Below are positions 9,196-28,585 of a stretch of 29,490 nucleotides of DNA, piece by piece. This stretch comes from a virus. The DNA is taken from the IMG/VR virus record IMGVR_UViG_3300036820_000060, positions 1-29,490 of that record. One strand, 5' to 3'. The notes under the pieces were generated by a model, which made no database searches, was not told the DNA's origin, and saw only the letters and a program-made list of their open reading frames with translations. The position numbers were made by a program, and so were the translations under genes. The first letter of the stretch is position 1. Every line of letters starts with the position of its first letter.

Positions 9196-10977
9196 TTATG
9201 CTGCCTTCCCCGACAGTCGCGGAATGGCCGCGGGGGTCGAGGCAGCTTGAGAGAGGGCTTGGGTGGCCCCGCCCTGGGCGGTGGGGCCGAGATTCTTGAT
9301 GGCCTGGCTTCCGGCCATAGCCGCCTGAGCAGACTGGAGGCGCTGGGCAGCGGCCTGCTGCTGGGCGGACATTTGCTTCACCTCGTACTCCGAGCGCAGC
9401 CAGGCGGAGGGGACGCCGGCATTGACCAGGACCTGGCGGGCCGCCTCCGGGCACTTCAAGAGATATACCACGGATGGGTCGAGCTGCATCATCGAGGTGA
9501 TGATCTGCACCGCGGTCGCCAGGGCTTCGTTCTGCACGGCCTTGATGGCGAGCGCGATCTTGGAGACGTAACTGACCTGAAACTCCAGGCTCCGAGGGTC
9601 CAGCCCGGCCGGCATGGGCTTGAATCGCCCGTTTCGGAACATGATGGCGAATACCCGGAAAAGGGTGGGGTTGAGCTTCTCCTTGGTGATTCGGCCGAAG
9701 ATCGGGGAGAAGAGGATCATTCGCTCGTTGACCATCTGCTGGACCTCGAAGGCGGTCTTCTGCTGCTCCATCACCTCCTCGCGGGTCAGGAGCTTGAACA
9801 TATCGACAAAGAAATAGTCCTGGATGACCTTCCGCTTCTGCTGGGTCTTGGTCTCACCCAGGTCCACCCGGTTCTTCATCTCAATCTGCTCGGGCTTATA
9901 GGCTGCCCCCATCGCCGCCTCCCAGTAGGTCACCCCGTCCGGGCGGTTGTCGGGATCGTAGGCCGTGTCGTCGGGCATGATCCAGGAGGGCCTGGCCATC
10001 CGCTCGATCACTACCGCCATGTCCTCCTCCATGCGGTTGACCATCTTGATCTCGGGCATGGCCTGGGTGCCGGGACCCCGGCCATAGGACTCGTTGTTGG
10101 ACCGCATCAGGCGGCAACCGGCATAGGGGTTTTCGTAGTACCCGTCCTCGCGCACGATGTCGTTGTCCTCGATGCAGACGTAAAGGCACTCCCAGGGCCG
10201 GTTCTCTGGAATCGTCGGCCCGTGCTTTACGTCCGCCTTCCTGCGCGGGCGGATCAGCTCGATGAAGTTGAATTGGCGGGCGTGGTCGGACGGCTCGGCG
10301 GAACGGAAGCAGCGAACGAGCTGGGGTGTGAGGGCATCCTCCCCAAACTCCTCCTCGGCCTGGTCGCAGCTCCATTTCCACTTGCGGGCGATGGTGGAGA
10401 TTCGCCCCCGGTTGTCCTCCTTCCAGTAGAAGTTTCCCACCGGGATATTGGTGAAGCCGAGGATGTTGTCCCTGTCGCTCGCATACTCGTCTGTCCGCAT
10501 GAGAGACGATCCGAAGCACCCCCCATCCAGGCAGTCCTCGTGCCACACCTCGTAAAAATTGGAGTTGCCGATCTCCTGGGCCATCCGCTCCGAGCAGTCG
10601 TTGAGCCAGTCCCGGAACTCCTGCGGGGCGTTGTCGTCCTGTGGCTCCAGCCGAAACCAGCGTTCGCTCGGCGGAGTGAGGAACGAGACAAGGCCGGCCG
10701 CGTAAGTGATGAGCGACTGCTCGGCTGTGGTGTCCCACAGGAGGATCGTCTGGGGCTGCCCGGGCGAGAGGAGGGTCAGGATGTTGCCCTTGCGCGGCTG
10801 GATGTAGTTGGCGCACTCCTGCCAACGGGTCCGAAAATTGAGCGCATCGGACTCCATTGAGTTGAACAGGGAGATAACCCGCTGCGCCCGGCTCTTGCCG
10901 GCGCCGAAATTGTCCCTGTCGGAACCATAGTCCTGGCCCTTTGATGGCTGTTTCTTTGGGGCGGTGACAGTCGGCAT
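9196..10977 (-). CDS. Portal protein (head-tail connector)
   Basis: The protein has 593 aa and belongs to the podovirus head-to-tail connector family (T7 gp8 type). Visible signatures are FRTRWQECANYIQPRKG near residue 48, ITYAAGLVSFLTPPSERWF (about 91-109, the conserved LASxLxxxLTPPSxxWF region), NSNFYEVWHEDCLDGGCFG, DNILGFTNIPVGNFYW, and SYGRGPGTQAMPEIKMVNRM in the middle, which is the hallmark G-R-GP...LPDIKxLN-like segment. The C-terminal 60 residues are a Gln/Ala-rich coiled-coil tail. Twelve copies would form the vertex ring through which DNA is packaged. ATG 10977 follows a G-rich stretch that could serve as a ribosome site. Confidence 0.93.
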   Translation of the reverse strand: MPTVTAPKKQPSKGQDYGSDRDNFGAGKSRAQRVISLFNSMESDALNFRTRWQECANYIQPRKGNILTLLSPGQPQTILLWDTTAEQSLITYAAGLVSFLTPPSERWFRLEPQDDNAPQEFRDWLNDCSERMAQEIGNSNFYEVWHEDCLDGGCFGSSLMRTDEYASDRDNILGFTNIPVGNFYWKEDNRGRISTIARKWKWSCDQAEEEFGEDALTPQLVRCFRSAEPSDHARQFNFIELIRPRRKADVKHGPTIPENRPWECLYVCIEDNDIVREDGYYENPYAGCRLMRSNNESYGRGPGTQAMPEIKMVNRMEEDMAVVIERMARPSWIMPDDTAYDPDNRPDGVTYWEAAMGAAYKPEQIEMKNRVDLGETKTQQKRKVIQDYFFVDMFKLLTREEVMEQQKTAFEVQQMVNERMILFSPIFGRITKEKLNPTLFRVFAIMFRNGRFKPMPAGLDPRSLEFQVSYVSKIALAIKAVQNEALATAVQIITSMMQLDPSVVYLLKCPEAARQVLVNAGVPSAWLRSEYEVKQMSAQQQAAAQRLQSAQAAMAGSQAIKNLGPTAQGGATQALSQAASTPAAIPRLSGKAA

Positions 10978-26223: not shown

Positions 26224-26522
26224 GGCCGGCGCCGCGGCCAACAGAGCCCCAGGTGGCCATCGTCCGGCCCATCCCGGGCGAGCCCACTACCTTCGAGGTG
26301 GCCTCGAAGTCCGAGCCAGGCCAGTGGCACCGAGTTGACATCGCCGCATGGGGAGGCTGCGGGGAGTGCGCCTGCCGGCGCTGGCAGACCGTGTGCTGGC
26401 CATTGATCCGCGACACCCACAGCCTTCCGCCTTCCCGCCGATGCCGCCACTTGCGCGCAGCTCGGGAGATGGCCCTCAATATCGCCATCCAACAACGCTT
26501 GAAAGAGCACCCAACCGAATGA
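26220..26522 (+). CDS. SWIM-type zinc finger protein
   Basis: The protein has 100 aa, with ATG 26220 overlapping the upstream TGA. The sequence GECACRRWQTVCWP...RRCRHLRAARE gives C50-x-C52-x22-C75-x-H77, which fits the SWIM zinc-binding signature C-x-C-x(n)-C-x-H, preceded by a short beta part (EPTTFEVASKSEPGQWHRVD). SWIM domains bind DNA or proteins. A small stand-alone version in a phage operon between an unknown gene and a resolvase-like gene may be a partner of one of them. The motif is clear; the function is inferred. Confidence 0.75.
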   Translation: MRPAPRPTEPQVAIVRPIPGEPTTFEVASKSEPGQWHRVDIAAWGGCGECACRRWQTVCWPLIRDTHSLPPSRRCRHLRAAREMALNIAIQQRLKEHPTE

Positions 26523-27013
26523 CCCGCCTTGCCCCCACCGACCTGGAGAGAATCCTCTCCAAACTGACACCAGCCCAGCAGGAGCGTTTCTGGCGGGATA
26601 ACCCCCAGGTCGCTCACCTGCGCCCGGATGGTCCGCCGTTGCCTCCTTTGGTTGCCGCCGTGGTGGGCATTCCTTTGAAGCCAAGGCGCCGGCTGCGGCA
26701 GTCCCAGAAGCCGCTCCTCAATAAGCTGGAGACTGATTTCCTCGCCTACCACACCGCCGTCCATCCCGACATCAAGCTCCGGCCCCAAGCCAAGCGGTAC
26801 GAGCTGGCGCGCGGCATCTGGTACAAGCCGGACTTCACCACTATCGTCAACGGGACGGAATGGGCGTTCGAGGTCAAAGGCCCCAAGGTGTTCCGGGGCG
26901 GCTTTGAGAACCTCAAGGTGGCAGCGCGGGCATGGCCGGATGTCTGGTGGATACTGGTCTGGAAAGAGGACAGGTATTCCCGAACCTGGAGCGAGCAAAG
27001 GGTGCTGCCATGA
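26519..27013 (+). CDS. DUF1064-type resolvase-like nuclease
   Basis: The protein has 164 aa. The C-terminal two thirds carry the PD-(D/E)XK pattern of DUF1064: NKLETDFLAYH (residues 68-78, Glu 71), WYKPDFTTIV (101-110, Asp 105), WAFEVKGPK (115-123, Glu 118 and Lys 120), and KVAARAWPDVWWILVW (133-148). This family is thought to include Holliday junction resolvase-like enzymes of phages. The N-terminal 60 residues are Pro/Arg-rich. It would resolve branched DNA before packaging. It overlaps its neighbours on both sides by four bases (ATGA). Confidence 0.8.
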   Translation: MTRLAPTDLERILSKLTPAQQERFWRDNPQVAHLRPDGPPLPPLVAAVVGIPLKPRRRLRQSQKPLLNKLETDFLAYHTAVHPDIKLRPQAKRYELARGIWYKPDFTTIVNGTEWAFEVKGPKVFRGGFENLKVAARAWPDVWWILVWKEDRYSRTWSEQRVLP

Positions 27014-27610
27014 AAACACAGTTTGGCGTGATCTACGCGGACCCTCCTTGGCAGTACCAAGATCCGAGCCTTGAACGGGGGGGGGGCTCTGCGCCACTAC
27101 CCGACAATGGCCCACGCTGACATCGCGGCCATGCCTGTGGCTGCGCTGGCCGCCGATGATGCTGCCCTTTTCATGTGGGCCACCTTCCCAAAGTTGGCTG
27201 AGGGCTTGGAGGTCATACGTGCCTGGGGCTTCGAGTACCGCACCTGCGCCTTCGTGTGGATAAAGGCCAACCGCAACTTTCAGATTGGGCAAACCCTATT
27301 GATTCCAGAGGACGAGGTGGACGCTTTTTGGGGAATGGGTAGGTGGACACGATCCAACGCGGAGCTTTGTTTACTCGGGTTGCGCGGGAAGCCGAAGCGC
27401 ATGTCTGGCGGCGTCCACCAGCTCATTTACGCCCCGATAGACCGCCACAGCGCAAAGCCCAGGGAGACCTACCGCCGCATCGAAGCCCTCATGGGGGACG
27501 TGCCGAAGGTCGAGTTGTTTTGCCGCAATCCCGAACCCGGATGGGATGTGTTCGGCAACGAGGTTATATCCACTGTAAACCTCACCCCTTCGTTGGCTTC
27601 GCCTCGATGA
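27010..27610 (+). pseudogene. MT-A70 family adenine methyltransferase, frame interrupted at a poly-G run
   Basis: From ATG 27010 the frame reads MKTQFGVIYADPPWQYQ, with the catalytic D-P-P-W at residues 11-14. It then enters a run of ten G and diverts to a short unrelated end at 27120. The rest of the family sequence continues one frame away from the run: GGALRHYPTM, FMWATFPKLAEGLEVIRAWG, FVWIKANRN, RETYRRIEALMGD and KVELFCRN. With nine G the two halves join as one protein of 199 aa, the normal size for phage MT-A70 enzymes (N6-adenine methylation of DNA). The gene is coupled to the resolvase by ATGA. It could be broken, phase variable, rescued by slippage, or misread in assembly. Confidence 0.85.
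27077..27086 (+). repeat. Ten-G homopolymer in the methyltransferase gene
   Basis: Ten consecutive G follow CTTGAAC, at the point where the two halves of the MT-A70 frame meet. Removing one G restores a continuous reading frame. Comparable runs elsewhere (eight at 11168-11175, seven at 14554-14560) do not break their genes. Confidence 0.9.
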
Positions 27611-27851
27611 CCCGCAGCCGCCCCTCGTGGTCGGCGAGTTGGCCAACCACTGTCTCGATGTGGGCCTCCATGACGGCAATCTTGGTGTTCAAGTCTGCCA
27701 TCGCGGAGTGATCGACTGACGGGATAAAGGCGTGAGCCCCGGCGATGATGGCCATGACCATGATCCGGTCCCACCAAGTCACCCCGCCGCCCCTGCGGCG
27801 CTCGTTCTTCACCACCCGCTCCACCAGGGCCTCGATGTCGTGGTCACTCAT
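27582..27851 (-). CDS. One-helix membrane protein with coiled coil, holin-like candidate
   Basis: The protein has 89 aa from ATG 27851 (ATGA with the lipase stop). The order is a charged start (SDHDIEALVERVVKNERRRG), one hydrophobic helix (WWDRIMVMAIIAGAHAFIP, about 26-44), and a coiled-coil-like tail (ADLNTKIAVMEAHIETVVGQ). It is the last gene of the leftward envelope cassette, and its end overlaps the methyltransferase end by 29 bases on the opposite strand. The small size and position next to the lipase make a holin or spanin-like role possible. There is no family match. Confidence 0.65.
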   Translation of the reverse strand: MSDHDIEALVERVVKNERRRGGGVTWWDRIMVMAIIAGAHAFIPSVDHSAMADLNTKIAVMEAHIETVVGQLADHEGRLRVIEAKPTKG

Positions 27852-28585
27852 GGGGTAGGTCCTGTGGGGTTCGCCCCAGCGGCCAAAGCCACCTCCGCCG
27901 CCACGTAAAGGTCGATGCTGTGGCATTCCGAAGTGTCCAACGGATTGCCCCACGGGGTCAACTCCAGGGCTGGCCCTACGTGGTTGTACGGATCGAGGGG
28001 GCGCAGGAGGTCGAAGTCCGGCACCTTGGGCACCAGGTCCCTGGGGTTGACGGCCCGGCGGGTCTGACCGGCGCAGGTGAGAGCGTATCCAGCCGAGTCC
28101 GAATCGCAGCTCCTTGGCTCCCCCCAGGTGAATATCTGGTCCGCATGCCCCAGGCGCATGGAAAGCTGCCGCACATCCGCCGCCCCCAGGCTGTGCCCAG
28201 CCACCGCCAACTGGTTTAACGGGCCGATCTCCGTCCATAGGCTAGATAGACCCCTCCCGAAGCCCAAAGTGGCCGTAAGTGCAGAGAAACCCCGGTGCAC
28301 GAGCCCTACGCCGCCCTTCCAGGGGCTTGCCACCAGTTCAATCTCCCCGTCTTCCAGCCATTCCACCCGCGTTTGGGTGCCCCGGGAGACGATGATCTGG
28401 CCGGCGCCGACCAGCGGAACGGCCAGGAAGCCGAAGCAGGCGGGGCCGTTGGCGTCGTCTGCCCACAGGTCGACCACCGCCTTGAAGCCCAGGCCGGTCA
28501 GGTCGGGCAATGTCCCGTCAGCCATGAGCGCCGGATCATAGGCGCGGGCGACTAGCTGGACGGCCTGGAGCGGGGTGAAGCTCAT
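27848..28585 (-). CDS. Class 3 lipase (alpha/beta hydrolase)
   Basis: The protein has 245 aa. Lipase_3 features appear in order: VSRGTQTRVEW (about 67-76, the oxyanion R-G-T), GLVHRGF (95-101, the H-x-G-F), VAGHSLGAADVRQLSMRL (128-145, nucleophile elbow with Ser 132), TWGEPRS (153-159, the G-x-P segment), NPRDLVPKVPD with Asp 183, and ECHSIDLYV with His 222. The triad Ser-Asp-His is complete, so an active esterase/lipase on lipid or ester substrates is likely. No signal peptide is present, so access to the envelope would need a membrane partner. Its neighbours are small membrane proteins and a lipoprotein, which suggests a role in host exit. Confidence 0.88.
   Translation of the reverse strand: MSFTPLQAVQLVARAYDPALMADGTLPDLTGLGFKAVVDLWADDANGPACFGFLAVPLVGAGQIIVSRGTQTRVEWLEDGEIELVASPWKGGVGLVHRGFSALTATLGFGRGLSSLWTEIGPLNQLAVAGHSLGAADVRQLSMRLGHADQIFTWGEPRSCDSDSAGYALTCAGQTRRAVNPRDLVPKVPDFDLLRPLDPYNHVGPALELTPWGNPLDTSECHSIDLYVAAEVALAAGANPTGPTP

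Follow-up and report, generated by a model that had tools for sequence, protein, structure and literature searches.

A ten-G tract at the frame change of a phage MT-A70 methyltransferase gene: a candidate phase-variable switch

The split gene and its neighborhood

We analyzed a 29,490-base IMG/VR contig (the window, by which we mean the whole of this stretch), whose portal, head, and tail proteins place it with the podoviruses, as distant kin of Pelagibacter and epsilon15-like phages. Near its end lies an MT-A70 methyltransferase gene whose reading frame changes at a run of G, with the following features.

26348..27013, plus strand: upstream gene, 221 aa, probable PD-(D/E)XK nuclease (resolvase/exonuclease-like), from motifs, predicted fold, and weak structural matches
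26997..27002, plus strand: Shine-Dalgarno-like AAAGGG in the sequence, 7 nt 5' of the ATG at 27010, possibly used by the methyltransferase gene
27010..27120, plus strand: first ORF as assembled, 36 aa, an open reading frame with the N-terminal half, including the DPPW catalytic motif, followed by an off-frame tail
27071..27610, plus strand: C-terminal half of the MT-A70 methyltransferase (GGALRHYPTM...WDVFGNEV) in the next frame; PF05063, 6.6e-20; phrog_359 DNA methyltransferase, 1e-66
27077..27086, plus strand: G10 tract in the sequence, in codons of the conserved RGGA motif, the point of frame change

The ten consecutive G were read directly from the sequence and form the longest homopolymer in the window. 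From the ATG at 27010, which overlaps the TGA stop of the preceding gene (ATGA), the frame reads MKTQFGVIYADPPWQYQDPSLERGGG and then departs from the conserved protein, and a TGA at 27118-27120 ends the 36-residue ORF shortly beyond DPPW. The frame of the C-terminal half is open from a TTG at 27071 to 27610, and no good start codon was seen for it. One uninterrupted frame would be expected of an MT-A70 family member; here, as assembled, the frames differ on either side of the tract, and both they and the position of the ten G are as the initial annotation had described them, with two MT-A70 halves meeting at the tract.

Read across the tract, the halves give a protein of 199 aa (relatives are mostly 177-191 aa), which bears out the earlier claim that the joined enzyme has normal length. 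This protein covers positions 1-172 of the 172 in the Pfam MT-A70 profile (85.7 bits against a cutoff of 23.9), and the C-terminal half alone, with which the PHROG 359 match was obtained, covers positions 23-172 (72.2 bits). It holds all 18 residues that are invariant across 45 aligned homologues, DPPW among them, and these are spread over both halves; its RGGA lies in the context DPS..RGGA.RHYPTM. The predicted structure is confident (pLDDT 87.5) and, among PDB entries, most resembles METTL3 catalytic domains. Judged from its sequence, 27010-27610 is a complete MT-A70 adenine methyltransferase gene with its halves in different frames, and its product is a predicted N6-adenine DNA methyltransferase. 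Full-length domain, DPPW, RGGA, HYPTM, size, and predicted fold are all shared with the phage MT-A70/PHROG 359 DNA methyltransferases, but those are single ORFs, whereas the window gene is split at G10. Other than the G run the gene is undamaged, so the lesion is recent, reversible, or artefactual, and we rejected an old pseudogene because no other lesion is present. Two marks of a phase-variable gene are found here, namely, a homopolymer at the frame change and a gene that has no other damage and can be read through the tract.

The product of the upstream gene is probably a PD-(D/E)XK nuclease. Its E128, KPD162F, and EVK177G motifs are invariant in five homologues, its AlphaFold core is alpha-beta-beta-beta-alpha-beta, and Foldseek returned weak matches to Hjc, RecU, MGME1, and lambda exonuclease folds (E of 0.004 or worse); searches of Pfam, PHROG, and PADLOC gave no match. 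We do not read the nuclease-like gene and the methyltransferase as a restriction-modification pair, because four relatives of the former (L124-L127) have no MT-A70 gene in the neighborhood fetched for them. On the other side, a class 3 lipase gene (PF01764, 1.2e-10; window 27848-28585, minus strand) adjoins the methyltransferase on the opposite strand.

Long G tracts in phage methyltransferase genes

The tract by itself is unremarkable, because first-order Markov sequences of the window contain about 0.56 G/C runs of at least 10 per window and because nine G in this gene have a probability of 1.6% given the protein and the codon usage of this 64% GC phage. Nine G in the window gene are thus mildly unlikely by ordinary codon choice, for a tract that was noticed post hoc. 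The element beyond chance is the tract's location: it lies in the RGGA codons of a conserved gene, precisely where the frame switches.

A search of IMG/VR found 111 relatives of the methyltransferase, of which 80 were kept. Nearly all of these pass through the RGGA junction without a change of frame, and their G runs between DPPW and HYPTM reach 6 at most; none has an insertion at the junction, and most encode RGGA without a long G tract. Occurrences of the exact RGGA..HYxTM motif fell into 22 distinct contexts, one with G7 and one with G9. The latter (L082-L085) comprises four assemblies of one AT-rich phage (GC 31-36%; 99.4-100% identical) that is unrelated to the window phage and carries G9 in the same RGGA codons as the window's G10; from that phage's own codon usage, such a run has a probability of 3e-4 to 1.2e-3. 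In contrast to the window gene, which is out of frame in a 64% GC genome, this tract is in frame and constant in length in all four assemblies. Two further phages, L017 and L018, which are about 80% identical in the MT-A70 region, both have an in-frame G10 elsewhere in the gene (RGGGVTR), where the related L015 has GGT AAG GGA, and L018 has another in-frame G10 in a neighboring C5 methyltransferase gene (L018:3626 and L018:2825; the L017 tract is at L017:2331). The initial annotation had proposed looking for nine and ten G in related phages: both lengths occur in other phages, as G9 in the unrelated L082-L085 and G10 in the diverged L017/L018, but all are in frame and no length variants accompany them. 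Variants in tract length were seen neither at the window site (by DNA pattern in IMG/VR) nor at the tracts of L082-L085, L017, and L018, and neither a second contig nor a near relative of the window phage was found in INPHARED or, by tract-spanning DNA pattern or portal protein, in IMG/VR. A bacterial counterpart was also sought as a long G tract before HYxTM; none of the 17 matches has a visible MT-A70 domain in its translations, most belong to a peptidase-like family with FIWGGRWYHYDTM, and they were rejected. Elsewhere, L081:4604-4804 has three runs of G8-G11 within 200 bases of apparently noncoding phage DNA.

Long tracts may be enriched in these genes. Among 58 distinct, unselected loci, G runs of at least 9 occur in 2 of 59 MT-A70 genes, compared to 0.062 expected from a synonymous-codon simulation, and in 1 of 782 other genes, compared to 1.43 expected; that single case is the C5 methyltransferase gene of L018. 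Both MT-A70 genes behind the excess come from L017 and L018, whose shared ancestry means that a single event may underlie the enrichment, in which case it is suggestive only. Tracts at two different sites in MT-A70 genes, together with the tract in a C5 methyltransferase gene adjacent to one such gene, are the basis for a broader reading, which we put forward only tentatively, that poly-G contingency tracts have arisen recurrently and independently in phage DNA methyltransferase genes and would act as heritable on/off switches of modification.

The C5 methyltransferase of L015, L017, and L018 is itself divided into two overlapping ORFs (L015:5430-3991, minus strand; L017:591-2000; L018:1807-3290), with an identical split position (VVHES*/FTKAKRAQN) in all three diverged phages and a G8 common to their second C5 ORF. 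We rejected this split as a second case of frameshift or phase variation; because the same overlapping arrangement occurs in all three phages, the ORFs look like separate genes or subunits, resembling either a two-subunit enzyme such as M.AquI or a conserved recoding.

Explanations for the frame change

By a small measure, we incline to the view that the ten G are a real slippage variant, with the methyltransferase OFF in the assembled sequence. A real tract-length variant is favored because poly-G slippage is established or reported elsewhere. In the pglX (phage growth limitation) methyltransferase gene of Streptomyces coelicolor, a change in G-tract length inactivates the gene, with switching at 1e-2 to 1e-4 (PMC4365076). 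Like the window gene, pglX belongs to a GC-rich genome, encodes a DNA methyltransferase, and carries a G tract (8 G), but it is a bacterial defense gene of another methyltransferase family, and its switching has been measured. A similar layout is known from the pilus loci bbr_1889/bbr_0113 of Bifidobacterium breve: bbr_1889 was annotated with an out-of-frame G10 and two ORFs, and G9 is in frame and fuses them (PMC9187656), although these are bacterial surface genes in which the length mixture was measured by maximum depth sequencing. Propionibacterium acnes has 54 mostly G/C tracts whose lengths follow clades, so that they change slowly (PMC4746626). Poly-G variation in a phage is reported for Klebsiella phage MMNM, where lengths differ between two preparations and one of the differences shifts the frame of a hypothetical gene (PMC11633184); that gene is of unknown function and not a methyltransferase. 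Together with the recurrence of G9/G10 in other phage MT-A70 genes and the undecayed state of the gene, these precedents indirectly support the phase-variation switch put forward in the initial annotation; against it, no length variants were found and most relatives have not conserved the tract. It further speaks against a switch that there is one contig only, that the four G9 assemblies of L082-L085 agree, and that the out-of-frame state was seen once.

A miscount in sequencing or assembly, whereby the phage gene would be intact and in frame and the assembler would have added one G, is the most serious rival, less probable than a real variant but far from negligible. G tracts are hard to count, G10 is the longest homopolymer of the window, and published cautions fit such an error: annotated G-tract lengths can differ from true ones (PMC9187656), Sanger resequencing removed homopolymer frameshifts from 454 phage assemblies (PMC3670811), and most singleton frameshifted genes that have homologues are expected to reflect sequencing errors (PMC3711429). 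However, all eight coding G9/G10 counts available from other viral contigs (L017, L018 twice, L082-L085, and L124) are in frame, and therefore such assemblies usually count these runs correctly, with the window as an exception. Moreover, the window has 17 homopolymers of at least 6, and the 16 besides the G10 were not seen to interrupt any gene, on gene calls that were made by codon usage and are hence weak for short genes. The contrast is with contig L096, which has many G8 runs at frame changes; this contig (NZ_BBBG01000004.1, Methanogenium cariaci) carries them within 8 kb and looks like a homopolymer-error assembly. A miscount is thus possible but not the default. The initial annotation had named sequencing or assembly error as the main alternative and slippage in transcription as the third, which was a sensible order.

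The frame change could also be a plain recent loss: the gene would be dispensable and would have been knocked out when its mutable homopolymer gained one base, and no switching would be under selection. We hold this to be unlikely, but the gene is dispensable, and loss is a live rival, because relatives have lost it by unrelated lesions. L020/L052 have an amber codon near 10073 where their close relatives L023/L037 have serine (TAG versus TCG), L080 carries a stop, and in L044 the DPPW of an otherwise intact gene is disrupted, near 9965, by extra bases and a stop codon. Internal deletions occur out of frame in L063:90-600 and in frame in L064:9900-10255, where DPPWSY joins nearly directly to FWGMG. 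Against loss in the window phage stand the intact remainder of the gene, the mechanical reversibility of an insertion in a G tract, and the recurrence of long G tracts in this gene family. Under recoding, the ten-G gene would yield some full-length enzyme because the ribosome (by +1 slippage) or RNA polymerase slips on the G run. A ten-base homopolymer is a possible slip site, and the out-of-frame TGA comes soon after it, but the conserved out-of-frame G tract at RGGA that conserved programmed recoding predicts was seen in no relative, and we regard this explanation as very improbable.

A proposed switch in phage DNA modification

If the tract is a real slippage variant, the switch would work as follows. 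Slipped-strand mispairing in replication would add a G to, or remove one from, a slippage-prone tract sitting in the RGGA codons of the predicted N6-adenine DNA methyltransferase gene. The ten G of the assembled, majority sequence would turn the gene OFF, with translation ending after 36 residues, and the full enzyme would come from genomes whose tract length keeps the frame, so that the phage population would mix modified and unmodified members. We infer a real G10, a mixed population, and switching that is reversible and selected; the benefit may lie in dealing with hosts whose restriction or methylation-dependent defense varies, and such mixed progeny could allow escape from host restriction.

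Switching by poly-G tracts is already known in bacterial methyltransferases and has been reported in a phage, and the window gene is a candidate for a further case; our literature searches found no phase variation of a phage MT-A70. The in-frame G9/G10 tracts in the methyltransferase genes of L082-L085, L017, and L018 are further concrete test cases. If the switch is real, phages too, and not their hosts alone, would generate a mix of modified and unmodified progeny by slippage at homopolymers, and this would affect models of restriction, of methylation-dependent defense, and of phage host range.
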